Under the pieces are notes generated by a model. The model searched no databases. It was not told the DNA's origin and saw only the letters and a list, made by a program, of their open reading frames with translations. Source: an uncultured Prevotella sp. (GTDB lineage Bacteria; Bacteroidota; Bacteroidia; Bacteroidales; Bacteroidaceae). From it: a stretch of DNA of 45,839 nt. The stretch is from assembly GCA_944319795.1 (NCBI GenBank), contig CALUFA010000019.1:1-45839 (forward strand). Direction: 5' to 3'. How positions within the stretch are numbered: the stretch's first letter is position 1; each line of letters begins with the position of its first letter. A program made the translations under genes and the position numbers. Of this stretch, positions 1 to 44,171 are shown in pieces.

Positions 1-76
1 GAAAACAGAATCCAGATATAAGAAGAAACTTACAACTGAATCCTGTTTCCATTTACACAAAATTTTGGACAGTGTC

Positions 77-214
77 GCAAATCGAGAGAAGTGCAAAATA
101 AAAAGGAGTGAAACGAGTTTTTATTTTCACTTCCGAGATGCCGCTTGTCTTATTGAAAGATAATGCAAATCGAGAGAAGTGCAAAATAAAAGCGAGTGAA
201 ACGAGCTTTTATTT
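77..214. repeat. Repeat E: two direct copies with a terminator-like hairpin
   Basis: Two near-identical copies of about 50 bp lie at 77-127 and 165-214. Each begins GCAAATCGAGAGAAGTGC. Each ends in a hairpin: in copy 2, AAATAAAAGC and GCTTTTATTT pair around an 11-nt loop. The stem mutations are compensated (AAAAAG/TTTTT in copy 1, AAAAGC/GCTTTT in copy 2), so the fold appears conserved. The short reading frame through this region is repeat sequence and I do not call it a gene. Confidence 0.75.
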
Positions 215-272
215 AATTAATATTCGCAATCAATTTAATGCCTTCATTTTTCTAAGAAGTCGGTTGCATTTT

Positions 273-367
273 GTCATTCCGGGCGTAGACCCGGAATCCA
301 GAAAACATCCTCTTTGTATAAGAACGATGCCGTATACACTGGATTCCGGGTCTACGCCCGGAATGAC
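273..367. repeat. Repeat D: perfect 29-bp inverted repeat
   Basis: The arms at 273-301 and 339-367 are exact reverse complements (outer ends GTCATTCC and GGAATGAC, inner CCGGAATCCAG and CTGGATTCCGG). They are separated by a 37-nt spacer. The flanks are partly matched as well: AGTCGGTTG before the left arm answers CAACCGACT after the right arm. The words AAACATCCTCTT and AAGAGGATGTTT at 303 and 389 form a further inverted pair. The structure resembles a dispersed REP/MITE-like element. The 1-556 stretch holds only this, repeat E and the pgk terminator. Confidence 0.8.
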
Positions 368-477
368 AGTTACCAACCGACTGCTTGGAAGAGGATGTTT
401 GATTGGGTAGATTGCGGATATTCATATTTTATTTCCGTCCTAAATACGAGTTCTCACGGTTCGTCTTTATAAAGTTA

Positions 478-507
478 AGGCTGCCGTTCCTCACGGAACA
501 GCAGCCT
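478..507 (-). terminator. Terminator-like hairpin after pgk
   Basis: AGGCTGC (478-484) pairs with GCAGCCT (501-507) and GTTCC with GGAAC, with one C/A mismatch and a TCAC loop. Read on the minus strand it follows the pgk stop by about 50 nt and runs into a T/A-rich stretch, so it probably ends pgk transcription. Confidence 0.65.
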
Positions 508-556
508 CGTAATTACTATGATGTTGAAAATTTGGCGTTTGTACGCCTATGTAAGA

Positions 557-1804
557 TTATGCTTCAATTGCTGCTACGCCGGGCAGAACCTTGCCTTCGA
601 TTGCCTCGAGCAGTGCTCCGCCGCCGGTAGAGATGTAAGACACCTTGTCGGCCATGCCGAACTTGTTGATGCAGGCGACAGAGTCGCCGCCGCCGATGAG
701 CGAGAATGCGCCGTTGGCGGTAGCCTCGGCTATGGCGTCGGCTATGGCCTTGGAGCCGCCGATGAAGTTGTCGAACTCGAACACTCCGGCCGGGCCGTTC
801 CAAAGGATTGTCTTTGCGCCCTTAATGGCCTCGGCGAATGCCTTGCGCGTCTCGGGGCCTGCGTCGAGCCCTTCCCATCCGTCGGGAATGTCGTTGGCAG
901 GGCAAACCTGCGTGTTGGCGTCGTTGGCGAATGCGTCGGCTGCGATGCAGTCGGTGCCGAGTATGAGGTTTACGCCGTTTTCCTTAGCCTTCTTTATCAC
1001 GTCGAGCGCAATGTCGAGCTTGTCGTCCTCGCAGATAGACTTACCGATCTTGCCGCCCTGGGCCTTTGCGAAGGTGTAAGTCATGCCGCCGCAGAGGATG
1101 AGGTTGTCAACCTTTCCGAGCAGGTTCTCGATGATTCCTATCTTTGTCGACACCTTAGAGCCGCCCATGATGGCCGTGAACGGGCGCTTGATGTTGCTCA
1201 GCACGTTGTCTACTGCGTTTACTTCCTTCTCCATGAGGTAGCCGAGCATCTTGCTGTCCTTGTCGAAGTATTCGTCGATTACGGCCGTAGAGGCGTGCTT
1301 GCGGTGTGCCGTGCCGAACGCGTCCATTACGTAGCAGTCTGCGTAAGAGGCCAGCTTCTTGGCGAATGCCTTCTGGCTTTCCTTCATGGCCTTCTTGGCC
1401 TCGTCGTATTTCGGGTCTTCCTTGTCGATGCCTACGGGCTTGCCTTCCTCTTCGGGGTAGAAGCGCAGGTTCTCGAGCAGCAGTGCCTCGCCCGGTTTCA
1501 GTTCTGCGGCCTCTTTGTCTGCGTTGGCGCAGTCGGGAGCGAACTTAACCTCTACTCCGAGATGCTCTGATACGTTCTTTACTATCTGGCTGAGGGAGAG
1601 TTTCGGGTTCACCTTGCCTTTGGGCTTGCCCATGTGGCTCATCATGATTACGCTGCCGCCGTCGGCGAGTATTTTCTTGAGTGTGGGGAGCGCGCCGCGT
1701 ATGCGGGTGTCGTCGGTTACGTTTCCGTTTTCATCCAGTGGCACGTTGAAGTCGACGCGCACGATTGCCTTCTTGCCGGCAAAGTTGAATTGATCGATTT
1801 TCAT
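557..1804 (-). CDS. pgk: Phosphoglycerate kinase
   Basis: Converts 1,3-bisphosphoglycerate and ADP to 3-phosphoglycerate and ATP in cytosolic glycolysis. The 415-residue protein is full length for the family. The N-terminal substrate loop VDFNVPL is at residues 17-23, the family motif SHMGKP at 56-61, the nucleotide-domain motif GGSKVS near 214, and the C-terminal GGGDS and STGGGA motifs at 371-375 and 392-397. The start MKIDQF is the usual one in Bacteroidetes. It is transcribed alone, with a TAnnTTTG box about 120 nt upstream and a hairpin downstream, and diverges from queC. The long open frames on the opposite strand are shadows caused by codon usage. Confidence 0.98.
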
Positions 1805-4371: not shown

Positions 4372-4375
4372 TAGC

Positions 4376-4751
4376 GAGCAGACAAGCAGATTTATTTTAG
4401 CAGACAAGCAGATTTATTTTAGCAGACGAGCAGACAAGTAACAAGCAGACAAGGAGATTTCTTTAGCAGACAAGCAGACGAGTGACAAGCAGACAAGGAG
4501 ATTTCCTTAGCAGTGGAGGAACAAAAATATGTGTCTTGTTCCTTTTATCAACTATGCAAATCTCCTTGTCTGCTTGTTACTTGTCTGCTTGTCTGCTAAA
4601 ATAAATCTGCTTGTTTGCTAAATAAATCTCCTTGTCTGCTTGTTACTTGTCTGCTTGTCTGCTAAAATAAATCTGCTTGTTTGCTAAAAATCTCCTTGTC
4701 TGCTTGTTACTTGTCTGCTTGTCTGCTAAAATGAATCTGCTTGTCTGCTTA
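4376..4751. repeat. Family A element, largest copy, between convergent genes
   Basis: The left half (about 4376-4514) carries GCAGACAA/GTAACAA tandem units and two copies of AAGGAGATTT. The right half (about 4556-4751) is its reverse complement in style, with three modules beginning TCTCCTTGTC at 4561, 4627 and 4691, so a module of about 65 bp is tandemly repeated. The two halves could form a very long imperfect hairpin around about 40 bp of unrelated sequence. It starts 5 nt after the cls-like stop and ends inside the TPR gene, supplying that gene's last seven codons and its stop. It fills the whole 4372-4725 gap. Confidence 0.9.
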
Positions 4752-6927
4752 AAAAATACAGGTCGGCCATAAGTTGCATGTCGGTGCTGCTTATGCCGTG
4801 GCTTGCAAGGAAGTCTTTGTCTTTCTCCATTTCCTTGGATATGTCGTAAGTCTTGCCGTTGCCGTCTTTCGTATTTATGAATTTGCCGAACTTCTCGGCT
4901 GCGCCGGCAATGTCGCCCGACAGCCAGTCGCAATAACCGGCGTTGAGCCAGTCGCCCGTTTCAACGTCTTCGCTGTTTAAAATCCTGTTGTAATACTTCC
5001 CGGCCTGTTCGTATTTGCGCAGCCCCATGAGCGTCCATGCGAGCACGCGCAATACCGGCGTTGAGTCAGGCGTTTCGATGTCGAGCTTGTAAAGCAGGTT
5101 GACGGCGTTGTCGTATTTCTCTGCTTTCGCCATTGCCACGCAGTAATTAAGGGCTATCGCCTTGTTTTCCGGGGCTTGTTCGTATAGTTTTCCGTAACAT
5201 TCGGCCGAACGGGTGTAGTCTCCTTTCTCGTAATAAGCTCGTGCAAGCAGCGACTCCGCACGCTTGTTTTCAGGTTCGAGCGCGCTTAGTTTCTCTAAGC
5301 ATGTTATTGCGTTATCGGGATTTTTCTTCATGTTCAGCTCGTAAATGCCGTTTGCGAGCATGAGTTTTGTGTCGCCGTCGTCGTAATGTTTCGCAAGAAT
5401 TTGTCCTAACGCTTCCTTGTTCTTGTGCTTGATCATGAAGAAACAGAGGTCGGGCGCCGCTTTGCGTATTGCCTTGCAGTCGAGCAAATCGTTGGTTATG
5501 AATACGAAGTTTTTCGTCTCGAAAGGGTTCAGCAACTGTCCGCGCTGCTGGAACAGCCTGAAGAATCGGTACATGTCTTGCAGTATCATCCTCCTGATGT
5601 ATGCCGGGCTTTCCTGCTCTTCCTTGCTCATCGTTGCGCCCAATGCCTCTTGTGAGTTGAACATTTCTTTCATGTTGGCCGGCAAGCGGCTGATGACCGA
5701 CGACAGGGCGAGCGTGAACGAATACTTGTCGCTGTCGCAGAAAGGCCCGTTGCTGAGTACGTTGGCCAGTAGGGGAGTGTCTTTCAGTCCGCTCGTCGCG
5801 CTTGATATTTCGGGGTGTTCGAGGTAGAACGGGCAAAACCAGTTTGCCACGTTGTAGAAGAACGGGAATCGTTTCATCTGTGAGAATCCGCCGAAGTATA
5901 TGTCGGAGCCGGCTTTCTGCATGTTCATCATCTTCTGGAAGCTCTCTTCCATTTTCTCCATCGCCCTTTCCGAAGCGCCCGGGTCGAATATGTCTGCCAT
6001 CGGGTCGTCTTCCTTTTCGGTTATGCCGAAACGCGTGATGTTTAGGTTGTTGTTCTTCATCAGCTCCGGCATGATGTCGCGCCTTATGGTCGCCGTGTCC
6101 TGTTCGGCGTTCAGGCAGAATACCATTTGTTTCTGCAAGTCGACAAGTTCGTTTACGACGTTCTTGTCGTTCAGTGCTTCGCTTACCGACTCTCTTAGCT
6201 TTGGAAACACCTTCGCGGCCTCTGACGAGAGGGCGAACGCCCAGCCTATGAGAGCTTTCTGCCGTAAATGTTCGTCTGTTGTCTTAAGGTAAACGTTCAT
6301 CATCACGCTGAACTTGTTTGCGTCCATGTTGTTCATGGTGGCCAATGTTAGCGCGCTGATTATCAGTTGGGCGTCTATCGTGTCGACCGCAGGCGACAGC
6401 AGCAGTTCTTCAAAGAACGCTGCGTCGTGCTCGCCCCATTGCCTTGAAGTGACGATATGGCAGAATAAGGATTGCGTGAAGTCGTTGTGCCGGCGGTAAA
6501 TGTCGTTGCTCTTCCGGGTACGTTCAGGTTCAGGGTCGAGGCTGAGCATGGCCACGTCTGTTACGAAACCTTCGAGTTCGGCCTTGATGTTGTCGTTGTT
6601 GAATGATTTTCTCGAGGCTTTGCCCGACGCTTCTGCGAAGAACTGGACGTTTTGCTTGCGGTAAGCCATGTTAAGGTCGGCGGTGAAGCGGTAGAGCCTT
6701 ACTATGAGGTTTTGGTATATTGCGCCGCGTTGCGGGTCGTTGAAGCCGCGCTTCATGTAGTCGAGCATCAGCCTGTAATCGTTTTCGATGCTCTCAAGCT
6801 CCTCGTCGTATATAAGGTGTGGGTTTGCGTCGACTAACGAGCGGGTCGAGCGCAGGGCGCGCCCTAACATGCCGTCGTAGATGTATTTCAGTATGTCGCT
6901 TATCTGTTTGGTCTCGTTGTTGTCCAT
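4726..6927 (-). CDS. Tetratricopeptide repeat protein
   Basis: A 733-residue protein with no recognised enzymatic domain. The N-terminal 500 residues are helix-rich and lack a signal peptide. Roughly residues 510-700 hold consecutive TPR-like helix pairs (for example AESLLARAYYEKGDYTRSAE and AWTLMGLRKYEQAGKYYNRI), suggesting a scaffolding role in the cytosol. It starts 10 nt after the stop of the lipoprotein gene and is surely co-transcribed with it. The last residues, SRQADSF, and the TAG stop are encoded by the family A element, so the native C-terminus has been replaced or extended. Function unknown. Confidence 0.85.
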   Translation of the reverse strand: MDNNETKQISDILKYIYDGMLGRALRSTRSLVDANPHLIYDEELESIENDYRLMLDYMKRGFNDPQRGAIYQNLIVRLYRFTADLNMAYRKQNVQFFAEASGKASRKSFNNDNIKAELEGFVTDVAMLSLDPEPERTRKSNDIYRRHNDFTQSLFCHIVTSRQWGEHDAAFFEELLLSPAVDTIDAQLIISALTLATMNNMDANKFSVMMNVYLKTTDEHLRQKALIGWAFALSSEAAKVFPKLRESVSEALNDKNVVNELVDLQKQMVFCLNAEQDTATIRRDIMPELMKNNNLNITRFGITEKEDDPMADIFDPGASERAMEKMEESFQKMMNMQKAGSDIYFGGFSQMKRFPFFYNVANWFCPFYLEHPEISSATSGLKDTPLLANVLSNGPFCDSDKYSFTLALSSVISRLPANMKEMFNSQEALGATMSKEEQESPAYIRRMILQDMYRFFRLFQQRGQLLNPFETKNFVFITNDLLDCKAIRKAAPDLCFFMIKHKNKEALGQILAKHYDDGDTKLMLANGIYELNMKKNPDNAITCLEKLSALEPENKRAESLLARAYYEKGDYTRSAECYGKLYEQAPENKAIALNYCVAMAKAEKYDNAVNLLYKLDIETPDSTPVLRVLAWTLMGLRKYEQAGKYYNRILNSEDVETGDWLNAGYCDWLSGDIAGAAEKFGKFINTKDGNGKTYDISKEMEKDKDFLASHGISSTDMQLMADLYFLSRQADSF

Positions 6928-8269: not shown

Positions 8270-9892
8270 ATGGCAAAAGACAAGATAGCTTACGTGTGCT
8301 CCAATTGTGGGCAAGAGTCGGCCAAATGGATTGGCAAATGCCCTAATTGCGGCCAGTGGAACACGTTCAAGGAGATACGTGTGGCCGCCGAAACGGCCGG
8401 CCAGGCATCGGCTGCGTCGGCGGCTTCGTCCGTGAGGCGGGGGCGCAACTCGGGAGGCTCGCGGCCGCTTCCGCTCCGCAGCATATCGGCTAAAGACGAG
8501 CCGCGCATCGACATGCGCGACGGCGAACTCAACCGCGTGCTCGGCGGTGGGTTGGTTCCCGGCTCGATAGTGTTGCTCGGCGGAGAGCCGGGTATCGGCA
8601 AGAGCACGCTGACGTTGCAGACCATACTCAACCTGCACGACCGTAAGTTATTATATGTAAGCGGAGAGGAAAGCGCCCACCAACTTAAGATGAGGGCCGA
8701 AAGGATATATTTAGCAGACAAGCAGACAAGCAGACAAGCAGACGAGCCTTTTTTAGCAGACAAGCAGACAAGCAGACAAGCAGACGAGCCTTTTTTAGCA
8801 GACAAGCGGACAAGCAGACAAGCAGACGGGCCTTTTTGGGGAAACGGGCTGACAAGCGGACAAGCAGACGGGCAAGTAATCGGACATAGCGAAGGCGGCA
8901 GGGGCGATACCTATGTCTGTTCGTCAGCCCGTAGCTTGCCTGCCGGCGAAGACAACTGCCTTATTCTTTGCGACACGTCGCTTGAGAGCATTTTCGCCAA
9001 CATACAAGAAACGCATCCCGACATCGTGGTAATCGACTCGATACAGACCATAAGCACCGAGAGCGTCGACAGTTCGCCGGGCAGCGTCACCCAAGTGCGC
9101 GAGTGCGCGTCGGCCCTGCTGCGCTTCGCCAAGTCGAGCGGGGTGCCCGTAATACTGATAGGCCATATCAATAAGGAGGGCACGCTGGCCGGGCCTAAGA
9201 TACTCGAGCACATCGTCGACACGGTAATCCAGTTTGAGGGCGACCAGCATTACATGTACCGCATACTCCGTTCGACGAAAAACCGTTTCGGCAGCACTTC
9301 CGAGTTAGGCATCTACGAGATGCGCCGAGACGGCCTGAGGCAAGTGTCGAACCCTTCGGAGCTATTGCTTTCGCAAGACCACGAGGGGCTTAGCGGCGTG
9401 GCTATATCGTCGGCAATCGAAGGCGTGCGCCCGTTTCTCGTAGAGACGCAGGCCCTCGTGTCGACCGCGGCCTACGGAACGCCGCAGCGCAGCGCCACCG
9501 GCTTCGACCAGCGCCGGCTGAACATGCTGCTCGCCGTGTTGGAAAAACGCGTCGGTTTCAAGTTGGTGCAGAAGGACGTTTTCCTCAACATTGCCGGCGG
9601 ACTGCGCGTTACCGACATGGCGATGGACCTCAGCGTGATAGCCGCCGTGCTTTCGAGCAACGTCGACACGGCGATAGAGGGCGGATGGTGCATGGCCGGC
9701 GAAGTGGGCCTTAGCGGCGAAGTGCGCCCCGTAAGCCGCATAGAGCAGCGCATATCTGAGGCTGAGAAGCTCGGCTTTACGCACATTATAGTGCCTAAAC
9801 ACAACCTTCAGGGCTTGTCGCGCAAGAAGTTCAACATCGAGCTTGTTCCCGTGCGTAAGGTTGATGAGGCGCTGAGGGCGCTGTTCGGGTGA
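8270..9892 (+). CDS. radA: DNA repair protein RadA, with an in-frame repeat insertion
   Basis: A RecA-like helicase/ATPase for recombination intermediates. The N-terminal zinc finger has Cys10, 13, 24 and 27. Walker A GEPGIGKST is at 105-113, and VIDSIQT, KNRFGS and the C-terminal Lon-like domain follow. At 540 residues it is about 80 longer than usual for the family. The excess lies between MRAERI and NCLILCDTSLE (residues 148-228): three near-perfect copies of LADKQTSRQADEPF, a degenerate fourth, and about 25 residues of linker. The DNA is the family A repeat that otherwise sits between genes. The reading frame is maintained and all motifs are intact, so the protein is probably functional with a disordered loop. 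Confidence 0.96.
   Translation: MAKDKIAYVCSNCGQESAKWIGKCPNCGQWNTFKEIRVAAETAGQASAASAASSVRRGRNSGGSRPLPLRSISAKDEPRIDMRDGELNRVLGGGLVPGSIVLLGGEPGIGKSTLTLQTILNLHDRKLLYVSGEESAHQLKMRAERIYLADKQTSRQADEPFLADKQTSRQADEPFLADKRTSRQADGPFWGNGLTSGQADGQVIGHSEGGRGDTYVCSSARSLPAGEDNCLILCDTSLESIFANIQETHPDIVVIDSIQTISTESVDSSPGSVTQVRECASALLRFAKSSGVPVILIGHINKEGTLAGPKILEHIVDTVIQFEGDQHYMYRILRSTKNRFGSTSELGIYEMRRDGLRQVSNPSELLLSQDHEGLSGVAISSAIEGVRPFLVETQALVSTAAYGTPQRSATGFDQRRLNMLLAVLEKRVGFKLVQKDVFLNIAGGLRVTDMAMDLSVIAAVLSSNVDTAIEGGWCMAGEVGLSGEVRPVSRIEQRISEAEKLGFTHIIVPKHNLQGLSRKKFNIELVPVRKVDEALRALFG
8711..8878. repeat. Family A repeat inside radA: 4 x 42 bp
   Basis: Units of 42 bp start at 8711, 8753, 8795 and 8837. The first two are identical, the third differs at a few sites and the fourth is degenerate. 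Each holds about three and a half GCAGACAA octamers followed by GAGCC and a T-run. Because 42 is a multiple of three, unit number can change without a frameshift. The stop-producing variant GTGACAA seen in intergenic copies does not occur here. Confidence 0.92.
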
Positions 9893-23998: not shown

Positions 23999-24008
23999 CG
24001 TGGAAGGA

Positions 24009-24111
24009 TGAAAAAGTGAGAAGGTGAAAGGGTGGAAAGGTGAGAAGGTGGAAATCCCGATAATTATCTTGTTCTTTTCACCTTTTCACTTTTTCACCCT
24101 TTCACCTTTTA
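24009..24111. repeat. Family B element between the PBP1A and helicase genes
   Basis: The left arm (24009-24053) is made of GTGAGAAG/GTGAAAGG/GTGGAAAG units. The right arm (24075-24110) is made of TTTTCACC/TTTTCACT/TTTCACCC units, its reverse complement, around a roughly 20-nt centre. It occupies the full gap from the PBP1A stop (24112) to 10 nt before the helicase start. The architecture matches family A, but the 8-bp unit is different. Confidence 0.85.
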
Positions 24112-36371: not shown

Positions 36372-36401
36372 TAGAGTGGTGTGAGCATGGTTTTTCTATT
36401 T

Positions 36402-36482
36402 AAAATGCCGCTTATTGCCGTTTAATAAGCGGCTTATTGCAACGCAAAAGGCTACCTTTGACACTGCCAAAGGTAGCCTTTT
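36402..36482. repeat. Family C array between convergent genes, with terminator hairpins
   Basis: Four 15-bp units start at 36402, 36424, 36446 and 36468, exactly 22 bp apart. Units 1 and 2 share GCCGCTTATT/AATAAGCGGC. Units 3 and 4 (AAAAGGCTACCTTTG and CAAAGGTAGCCTTTT) are perfect reverse complements. The array therefore folds into two consecutive hairpins with 7-nt loops. It lies between the ends of the VOC gene and pyrF and probably terminates both. The rest of the 36200-36738 gap shows no gene. Confidence 0.85.
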
Positions 36483-37586: not shown

Positions 37587-37695
37587 TAGCAGACAAGTGA
37601 CAAGCTGACCAGCAGACCAGGAGATTTCCTTTACTTATTATAGTTTGACAAGGCACATCTCCTTGTCTGCTGGTCTGCTTGTCACTTTCTGCTTG
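37587..37695. repeat. Family A element between prfA and pyrF
   Basis: The plus-strand left arm TAGCAGACAAGTGACAAG and the right arm CTTGTCTGCTGGTCTGCTTG are inverted, and the core pairs GGAGATTT/ACATCTCC around about 25 nt. It ends 2 nt from the prfA stop and lies 14 nt before the pyrF start. It is one of the clearest palindromic copies. Confidence 0.9.
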
Positions 37696-38824: not shown

Positions 38825-38985
38825 TTGACAAGTAATCAGTTGACAAACGACAAGCATGCAAGTGACAAGTAGGCAAGTTGATGGCTTATGAGATATAAGC
38901 AGCAAGGAAAATTTCCTTTTCACTTGTCTGCTTGTCGCTTGTCAACTGATTACTTGTTTGCTTGTCACTTGTCTGCTTGTCAACT
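38825..38985. repeat. Family A element between purM and prfA
   Basis: The left arm begins GTTGACAAGTAATCAGTTGAC and is mirrored by GTCAACTGATTACTTG in the right arm. GTGACAAG and CACTTGTC tracts are also paired. The core here is GGAAAATTTCC, not the usual GGAGATTT. It spans nearly all of the 178-bp gap. Confidence 0.88.
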
Positions 38986-38988
38986 TAA

Positions 38989-40170: not shown

Positions 40171-40287
40171 AGTGACGAGTTGACGAGTTACGAGCAGACA
40201 AGGAGATTTGTCTTGTCGCTTGTCTGTTTGTCAACATGTCTGTTAGGCATTGTCGCTTGTCTGCTTGTGTCTTGTTACTTGTCTGCC
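40171..40287. repeat. Family A element between aroE and purM
   Basis: The left arm AGTGACGAGTTGACGAG and GAGCAGACAAGGAGATTT is followed by the right arm CTTGTCGCTTGTCTG and CTTGTTACTTGTCTGCC. The right end runs into aroE, giving its last three codons and the stop (AAGTAAC). It ends at TATTTAGT, 12 nt from the purM start. Confidence 0.88.
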
Positions 40288-41791: not shown

Positions 41792-41890
41792 GAGCAGACG
41801 AGCAGTCAGCAGACAAGCAGACAAGGAGATTTGCCTTGTTTGCTCGTCACTCGTCTGCTCGCCACTTGTCTGCTTGTCACTTGTCTGCTT
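41792..41890. repeat. Family A element between purC and menG
   Basis: The left arm GAGCAGACGAGCAGTCAGC is followed by GCAGACAAGGAGATTT, then the right arm CTCGTCACTCGTCTGCTCG and CACTTGTCTGCTTG. It abuts the purC stop (TTAAGCAGAC on the minus strand) and ends 13 nt before the menG start. Confidence 0.9.
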
Positions 41891-42851: not shown

Positions 42852-43012
42852 AGTTGACAAGCCGTCAGAGACGAGCAGACAAGGGGATTTGCCTTACTGC
42901 TTGTACCTCATAAGCTATTAACTTGTCTGCTTGTCACTTGTCTGCTTGTCTGCCGAAAAGACTTGTCTGCTTGTCACTTGTCTGCTTGTCTGCTGAAAAG
43001 AATTGTCTGCTT
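42852..43012. repeat. Family A element between phoH and purC
   Basis: The left arm AGTTGACAAG with GAGCAGACAAGGGGATTT is followed by two right-arm modules ending TCTGCCGAAAAG and TCTGCTGAAAAG. About 95 bp of the element (42918-43012) is translated as the C-terminal tail of the PhoH protein. It ends 12 nt before the purC start. Confidence 0.9.
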
Positions 43013-43934
43013 CCGCGAACGCCTTTACGATGCGCGTAACGAGTTTGTGCCTTACGATGTCCTTGTCCGTCATGTTGACGATGGATATTCCCTCAACGTC
43101 CTTCAGCACTGTTACGGCCTCGCGCAGTCCGCTCTTAGTGCCGTGCGGCAGGTCCACTTGCGTCAGGTCGCCCGTGATAATCATCTTCGTGTTCCATCCC
43201 ATTCTTGTCAGGAACATCCTTATCTGCGCCGTCGTAGTGTTCTGCGCTTCGTCGAGGATTACTACGGCGTCGCTCAGCGTGCGGCCTCGCATGAACGCCA
43301 AAGGGGCTATCTGTATTACGCGCTTCTCCATCATGTCCTGCAGCTTTACGGCCGGCAGCATGTCTTCAAGGGCGTCGTAGAGCGGTTGTAGGTAAGGGTC
43401 TATCTTATCCTTCATGTCGCCCGGCAGGAAGCCGAGCTTCTCGCCGGCCTCCACGGCGGGGCGGCTCAGTATTATCTTCTTCGCCCGTTTCTCCTTAAGG
43501 GCCTTCACGGCGAGGGCTATGCTCAGGTAAGTCTTGCCCGTTCCGGCCGGCCCTATGGCGAACACCATGTCCGTCTTGTCGTAGGCGTCGATAAGCCTCT
43601 GCTGGTTTTCGCTGCGGCTTTTTATCGGCTTGCCCGATATGTTGTACACCACTACGCCCTTCGTCGTGTCCTCTTTGGCTTTTCCGCCCTTTATGATGTC
43701 TATGATGTCTTCCTCGTTGATAGAGTTGTATTTCAGCACATGCTTGCGCAGTTTCTCAATGCTTTCCTCGAAGTCGGCCATCAGCTCCTCGTCGCCCAGC
43801 ACGCGCACTACGTTGTCTCTCGCCACGATGCGCAGCTTCGGGTATAGTGCTTTTATTATTTGTAGGTAAGCGTTGCCCGCCCCGTACAGCACAACGGGGT
43901 CGATGTCTTCAAGTACTATGTGTTTCTCTATCAA
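42918..43934 (-). CDS. phoH: PhoH-like ATPase
   Basis: A cytosolic P-loop ATPase of the PhoH/YbeZ family, linked in other bacteria to RNA metabolism together with the YbeY endonuclease. It has 338 residues, Walker A GPAGTGKTYLSIA near 130 and Walker B VVILDEAQN, followed by the family motif ITGDLTQVDLP. Native homology ends around residue 310. The last 28 residues, rich in QTSRQ and ADKQTS, are encoded by the family A repeat. The first gene of the operon, with a TAATTTTG box 26 nt upstream. Confidence 0.93.
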   Translation of the reverse strand: MIEKHIVLEDIDPVVLYGAGNAYLQIIKALYPKLRIVARDNVVRVLGDEELMADFEESIEKLRKHVLKYNSINEEDIIDIIKGGKAKEDTTKGVVVYNISGKPIKSRSENQQRLIDAYDKTDMVFAIGPAGTGKTYLSIALAVKALKEKRAKKIILSRPAVEAGEKLGFLPGDMKDKIDPYLQPLYDALEDMLPAVKLQDMMEKRVIQIAPLAFMRGRTLSDAVVILDEAQNTTTAQIRMFLTRMGWNTKMIITGDLTQVDLPHGTKSGLREAVTVLKDVEGISIVNMTDKDIVRHKLVTRIVKAFAEADNSFQQTSRQVTSRQVFSADKQTSDKQTS

Positions 43935-44073: not shown

Positions 44074-44171
44074 AAAACCTACGGTTTCCCAAAAGGCGGT
44101 CTTTTAGCTTGTAAAAGGTAACCTTTTAGGCGGTAAAAGGTGGCCTTTTGCAGTGTGAAAGGATGCCTTTT
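44074..44171. repeat. Family C array upstream of the MFS gene
   Basis: The lead palindrome AAAACCTACGGTTTC is at 44074-44088. After two bases, four 15-bp units start at 44091, 44113, 44135 and 44157, exactly 22 bp apart, with 7-nt spacers. Each unit is itself a quasi-palindrome (for example AAAAGGTAACCTTTT). The array lies in the 43935-44356 gap between divergent phoH and the MFS gene, so it is not obviously a terminator. A homologous copy lies downstream of the MFS gene. Confidence 0.85.

Follow-up and report, generated by a model that had tools for sequence, protein, structure and literature searches.

The window, the whole stretch of 45,839 nucleotides analysed here, is contig CALUFA010000019.1 of an uncultured Prevotella sp. 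(assembly GCA_944319795.1; genome G000). It contains a radA gene, identified by Pfam matches of the ORF to Zn_ribbon_LapB, AAA_25, Lon_C and ChlI. RadA entries are also the best structure relatives in a PDB search with the encoded protein (5lkm, E=5e-124). The protein has the zinc ribbon, Walker A ATPase, KNRFG motif and Lon-like domain of bacterial RadA/Sms; residues C10, C13, C24, C27, G108-T113 and K337-G341 are invariant in a 30-sequence alignment.

The gene carries an in-frame insert between the helix that follows the SGEES motif and the next strand of RadA (Table 1); a preliminary description of this DNA had placed it between the Walker A half and the next strand. Compared with the RadA of L071 (463 aa), the net gain is 76 aa in the alignment census. 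Within the insert lies a tandem array of 42-bp units composed of AAGCAGAC-type octamers, for which TRF reports a period of 42 and 3.8 copies at 8710-8870. The array is in phase 0 of an ORF that stays open throughout, as the preliminary description had stated; of the four units that it counted, three are clear, but the fourth is degenerate. The insert is also longer than that description recognised and contains an inverted arm after the array. Palindromic build is weak in the radA copy (19 nt at 84%), and folding of the insert as an RNA hairpin gives z -0.33, no better than shuffles.

Table 1. Coordinates of radA, its insert and the octamer-family sites in the window
Feature	Position	Strand	Remarks
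Plus arm of the intergenic copy	4374-4502	+	
Minus arm of the same intergenic copy	4560-4752	-	its end doubles as coding sequence for the final residues of TPR gene 4726-6927(-)
radA	8270-9892	+	540 aa, internal stops absent
In-frame radA insert	8708-8950	+	residues 147-227; about 81 residues vs about 5 in short-loop relative L071
42-bp unit 1	8711-8752	+	LADKQTSRQADEPF
42-bp unit 2	8753-8794	+	same as unit 1 base for base
42-bp unit 3	8795-8836	+	40/42 alike
Degenerate unit 4	8837-8878	+	29/42 alike
Degenerate inverted arm of the radA insert	8914-8932	-	84% complementary to 8844-8862, 19 nt
Short family site	37658-37684	-	no ORF of at least 90 aa across
Family site	38921-38986	-	no ORF of at least 90 aa across
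Family site	40217-40271	-	no ORF of at least 90 aa across
Family site	41793-41830	+	no ORF of at least 90 aa across
Repeat-derived C-terminal tail of PhoH-like gene 42918-43781(-)	42920-42996	-	

The array belongs to a dispersed family

The preliminary description assigned the array to a family of dispersed repeats, and the genome bears this out. The family consists of AAGCAGAC-octamer arrays, with 63 BLAST pieces in the 2.61-Mb genome of the window and 46 sites in an octamer scan of 29 fetched loci plus the window. Both arms are present at 25 sites (23 '+-', two '+--' and none in the reverse order), and a single arm at 21. The window's intergenic copy (4374-4752) has 84-nt arms that are 95% complementary and is flanked by convergent genes; a simple scan for a terminator at 4377-4755 found none. 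Other short tandem or 22-bp palindrome-like families, some with an 8- or 24-bp period, occur in the window at 24000-24110, 36399-36440 and 44101-44149, and elsewhere in the same genome at L002, L131, L139, L141 and L146.

The family has matches at E<=0.001 in 6 of 200 same-genus genomes, the window's included, in a survey that scored at most four candidates per genome. Four of them (G000, G004, G053 and G065) match at E<=4e-17 with 62-97 first-look candidates each, and G009 and G075 have one or two weak matches. By RadA, the nearest relatives among the genomes searched, after the full-length match of G072, are G053, G004 and G065; the named nearest relatives are Prevotella MAGs. G053, G004 and G065 carry the family, and their RadA loops are without this array. 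A collection of plasmids gave no match. A RAYT was considered as the mover in G000 and rejected, with no match to PF01797 (Y1_Tnp) at E<=0.001 in a genome that is 97.7% complete; G072 has four.

Other dispersed repeats fill the same RadA loop in other species

The insertion point was described previously as a short loop in homologues. The minimum length, 41-42 aa from MR to SIQT, is found in 50 of 134 distinct loops, but 20 of the 134, a non-random set of best matches and hand-picked loci, measure at least 55 aa between the same points. Across more than 100 loci, the loop is observed empty, short, long and amplified. In a census aligned to L071, 109 loci gave 101 RadA proteins of 400-620 aa, 93 of them distinct. 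Inserts after L071 position 146 reach at least 15 aa in 9/93 and at least 6 aa in 37/93; elsewhere in the protein, there are six inserts of at least 6 aa, and the sole one of at least 15 aa is that of L064, near L071 position 214. Choosing loci by their long ORFs was rejected as a way to find long loops: among 20 loci picked on this basis, only L197 has one, and it is the L112 genome again.

A result beyond the preliminary description is that this loop is filled by other dispersed repeats in other species. In whole-genome searches, piece counts include the query's own place, and palindromes are counted on both strands. The G072 loop has 81 pieces in G072 and 19 in G027; radA itself is the best match in G000, G053 and G065, and G004 and G191 have none. 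The palindrome of the L051 loop has 64 pieces in its own genome, 77 in G072, 15 each in the genomes of L064 and L046, one each in those of L052, L050 and L112, and none in G000 and the L114 genome. This family is thus commoner in G072 than at home, yet the radA loop of G072 holds another repeat. The L112 loop has 8, 29, 33 and 48 pieces in the genomes of L112, L046, L115 and L017, all of which have the CACCCAA heptamer in the radA loop, and none in G000, G072 and the genomes of L045 and L051. The CTCACTC loop of G178 (E<=0.01) has 40 pieces in G178, 12 in G191, five in G080, two in G072 and none in G000.

Five distinguishable dispersed families fill the RadA loop in eight genomes. For L046, L115, L017, L052, L064 and L114, the loop was assessed from its sequence or with a query taken from another genome. 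Three of the five families are C/A-rich heptamers and may have a common origin. The long loop of L045 matches only itself in the whole-genome search, and that of L050 has one weak second match; therefore, not every long loop derives from a dispersed repeat.

A within-gene test was applicable to 61 of the 134 loops (at least 36 nt, with enough control windows). Loops that beat every window of the same gene number 8/61 for tandem repetition and 11/61 for stem length (1.03 expected each), or 17/61 for either. Recurrence of the loop sequence in the 12-13-kb radA flanks was rejected as a test of dispersion: the window's own loop alone stood out (1 of 49 loci, 1.1 expected), and whole-genome searches were needed.

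Local slippage in a low-complexity loop might produce likeness to genomic repeats without copying of a dispersed element, and in many species RadA loops do differ in length although they contain no repeats, with L045 and L050 as long loops not traced to dispersed repeats. This origin is very unlikely for the window's insert, however, because the array of the 540-aa radA matches a distant family copy over 118 nt at 85% (BLAST) and is accompanied by the family's inverted arm, and because the whole inserts of G072 and L051 recur around their genomes.

Repeats inside other genes

The family was said to normally avoid genes. Its sites in the window's genome are indeed mostly intergenic, but 8/46 are in-frame parts of Pfam-supported genes, and a further five make up protein termini. 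The genic hosts are RadA, a TPR histidine kinase, a sulfatase-type membrane protein, a Fer4 membrane protein, MetH (two sites), the ThiD-ThiE linker and a BcrAD/DUF2229 activase. The host ORFs at L136, L141, L125 and L150 are cut by the ends of the stretches. L131 (an ORF without Pfam support), L129, L130, L145 and L148 (array probably before the true start) were left out of the genic count.

In the TPR histidine kinase (L003:867-3005 (-)), more than 100 repeat residues with both arms lie inside the dimerisation domain. The HisKA_3 match covers positions 1-24 of 68 and stops just before the repeat. The linker of the ThiD-ThiE fusion (L138:695-2221 (+)) is made of repeat (KQTSRQADKQTS), and the repeat may have helped join the two genes. 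Repeat-derived tails are found on the PhoH-like and TPR proteins of the window, an Inositol_P-family protein (L140) and a U32 peptidase (L150). At L125 (ORF 1-1516 (-)), the reverse octamer strand encodes LLVCLSA, which makes up the hydrophobic N-terminus of a periplasmic-binding/HisKA protein, as though a signal peptide had come from the repeat.

Similarly, among the 20 best-scoring distinct places after radA in G072, the repeat lies in an ORF at 18 (not at L180 and L182), a share that is biased upward because the ranking was based on similarity to a genic copy. Sixteen of the 18 ORFs pass the Pfam cut-off; L169 is below it, and L174 has no match. The hosts include M3 and M28 peptidases, FTCD, MurF-Alr type, threonine synthase, flippase type and PurL type proteins, together with two GH2, GH43, HerA, UvrA, KdtA, DUF4435, DUF6057 and DUF4861. 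Thirteen copies in 12 ORFs, selected visually for the presence of both arms, can be aligned with the radA copy of G072 as an imperfect palindrome of 85-90 bp in one orientation to the gene. The remaining six ORFs have mainly heptamer arrays. The UvrA of G072 (L179:463-3177 (-)), another repair ATPase, contains two copies of the palindromic element.

Fourteen CACCCAA-family stretches from G191 were inspected. Chorismate synthase and sulfatase domains contain copies, and other copies adjoin the domains of a protein kinase, CoaBC, a ketosynthase and a FecR-like protein; at 5/14 (L156, L159, L160, L163 and L164), no ORF covers the main array. In the chorismate synthase (L154:1803-2942 (-)), a heptamer array (TPSPNTQHPSPITQ...) is situated within the single Pfam match.

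Frame keeping, selection and readability

The preliminary description pointed to a unit length divisible by three, and this proves to be a real signature of genic arrays. Divisible units are found in 11/12 genic arrays (4/5 in G000, with L141 as the exception, and 7/7 in G072) and in 4/19 intergenic arrays of G000. By Fisher's test, the contrast has p=0.028 within G000 and p=1.7e-4 when the two genomes are pooled, with an intergenic control from G000 only. Unit length was taken from the best TRF row with a period of at least 18, and seven uncertain G000 arrays (3/7 divisible) were excluded. Such frame-keeping lengths fit inserts that would be translated in needed genes.

The stop-containing variant AAGTGAC is absent from the radA array, in agreement with the preliminary description, but its shortage in genic arrays is not significant (2/13 vs 20/50, Fisher p=0.12). 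The inner cap AAGGAGA of intergenic arrays is rarer in genic ones (3/13 vs 34/50, p=0.005). Pure arrays of AAGCAGAC and CACCCAA read TSRQADKQ and HPTPNTQ, respectively, in all three frames, because eight and seven are not multiples of three, and both are open on either strand; a CTCAACC array is open on one strand only. Being open in all six frames was dismissed as a special property, as 46% of random octamers are likewise open.

An octamer tandem build in a repair gene brings to mind a contingency locus, in which gain or loss of a single octamer would throw radA out of frame, or back into it, and so turn repair off and on in some of the cells; a change of one octamer either way would indeed break the frame. 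We regard this as very improbable, since the steps by which the array changes are 42 bp long, unit lengths in genic arrays as a class stay divisible by three, and pure octamer runs are short.

The unit lengths also bear on an assembly or binning error that put an intergenic repeat in radA. In favour of such an error, the assembly is a draft in 77 contigs and the first two units do not differ; however, the open frame spans both array and inverted arm, the 42-bp unit is absent from the intergenic arrays measured, and other assemblies bear other repeats at the same point. An artefact of this kind is scarcely credible.

The RadA core, without the loop, has a pN/pS of 0.10-0.15 to L011, L012, L013 and L071, with dS near or at saturation, and of 0.08-0.14 among these four. 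The core is under purifying selection.

Predicted structure and position of the insert

An AlphaFold2 model built with 30 RadA sequences has a mean pLDDT of 63.9, with residues 164-222 below 50. In the model, a helix (136-158) and a strand (230-233) flank the insert. Foldseek places the RadA structures 8rxc and 5lkm at the top, with a TM-score to the query of 0.28-0.37. By sequence, the insert maps between residues 140 and 146 of 5lkm, a pneumococcal RadA chain. According to an excerpt of PMC11612176, the DNA loop RL1 of RadA comprises residues 213-223, apart in sequence from the insert point, and an excerpt of PMC5512693 describes an N-terminal C4 motif needed for RecA contact.

Recurrence at one RadA point across many species could mean that the insert is adaptive, alters RadA loading, partner binding or activity, and fills the loop by selection and not tolerance. 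A precedent is the Rickettsia guanylate kinase with an RPE-type palindrome, which is translated and active and has a changed substrate affinity, as stated in an excerpt of PMC2229807. Against this stand inserts without common sequence or length, a loop that lies apart in sequence from both RL1 and the C4 motif, and the many other genes of these genomes that also bear repeats; adaptation is therefore an improbable reason for the filled loop.

Discussion

Taken together, scattered repeats here seem to become new protein segments. It is likely that a dispersed octamer element entered a permissive radA loop, grew there in frame-keeping steps, and was translated and tolerated. Specifically, an element with two inverted arms of AAGCAGAC-type octamers would have been placed in the loop after the SGEES helix, and a 42-bp unit would then have multiplied in frame-preserving steps. 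The insert would be read as a loop of about 80 residues, polar and probably disordered, that RadA tolerates. The octamer is free of stops and its length is not a multiple of three, so a pure array yields one peptide whichever frame is read, and RadA would survive a net gain or loss of 3n. The loop would be permissive: in other species, different repeats, native to those genomes, occupy this point. We infer the entry by copying as well as the translation, tolerance and disorder of the insert.

Protein-coding palindromes were reportedly presented by Ogata in 2002 as a feature of Rickettsia. RPE-type palindromes are small dispersed inverted repeats that occur between genes and in frame in conserved genes, with the host gene staying open, as far as excerpts of three papers describe them (PMC10969869, PMC2229807 and PMC2996958); related protein-coding palindromes are reported, likewise in excerpts, for Wolbachia and Methanocaldococcus. 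The window's family resembles them in being dispersed, with copies inside Pfam-supported genes and with paired arms at 25/46 sites, and in keeping its inserts in frame in genes that stay open, with genic units nearly always divisible by three. The closest match to RPE in build is the 85-90-bp palindrome of G072. In contrast to RPE, the repeats described here belong to another phylum, their arms are octamer or heptamer arrays, several families occur per genus, genic arrays grow in 3n units, and different families strike one protein loop.

Heptamer arrays of Xanthomonas and Nostoc are dispersed, 89-93% and 68% intergenic, respectively, and some are intragenic, according to an excerpt of PMC4692102. 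The repeats here differ from these in the 8-bp unit of the window's family, in regular inverted pairing and in having in-frame copies in conserved enzymes of several species; the CACCCAA and CTCACTC families of relatives do have 7-bp units. REP/BIME elements of RAYT are alike as short dispersed inverted repeats; however, G000 has no Y1_Tnp match, and the arms here are tandem and the copies partly genic. ERIC, YPAL and Correia MITEs are non-autonomous inverted repeats that can be fused in frame with ORFs, and some of them supply signal peptides, as an excerpt of PMC2229807 relates. The repeats here differ in being built of octamers, and L125 is comparable to the signal-peptide cases. Among the literature matches listed, there is no paper on in-frame dispersed repeats in Prevotella, and none with the octamer/heptamer build, the frame-keeping growth or one loop struck by several families. 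The kind of element is known from Rickettsia and a few others; the octamer/heptamer arms and the repeated hits on one loop set this variant apart.

The same type of event is found in Prevotella-like genomes with several families and in core enzymes including MetH, ThiD-ThiE and UvrA, as well as threonine synthase, a PurL-like enzyme and chorismate synthase. Such segments can mislead repeat masking and protein clustering. The RadA loop constitutes a natural experiment on non-coding repeats becoming protein. A broader reading, which we put forward tentatively and hold to be rather unlikely, is that a process in Prevotella-like genomes, for which no transposase has so far been found in the window's genome, keeps spreading the short-period or palindromic repeats of each lineage across its genome and, in frame, into genes, with the RadA loop as a preferred place. 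If that were true, core enzymes would steadily gain new translated segments.
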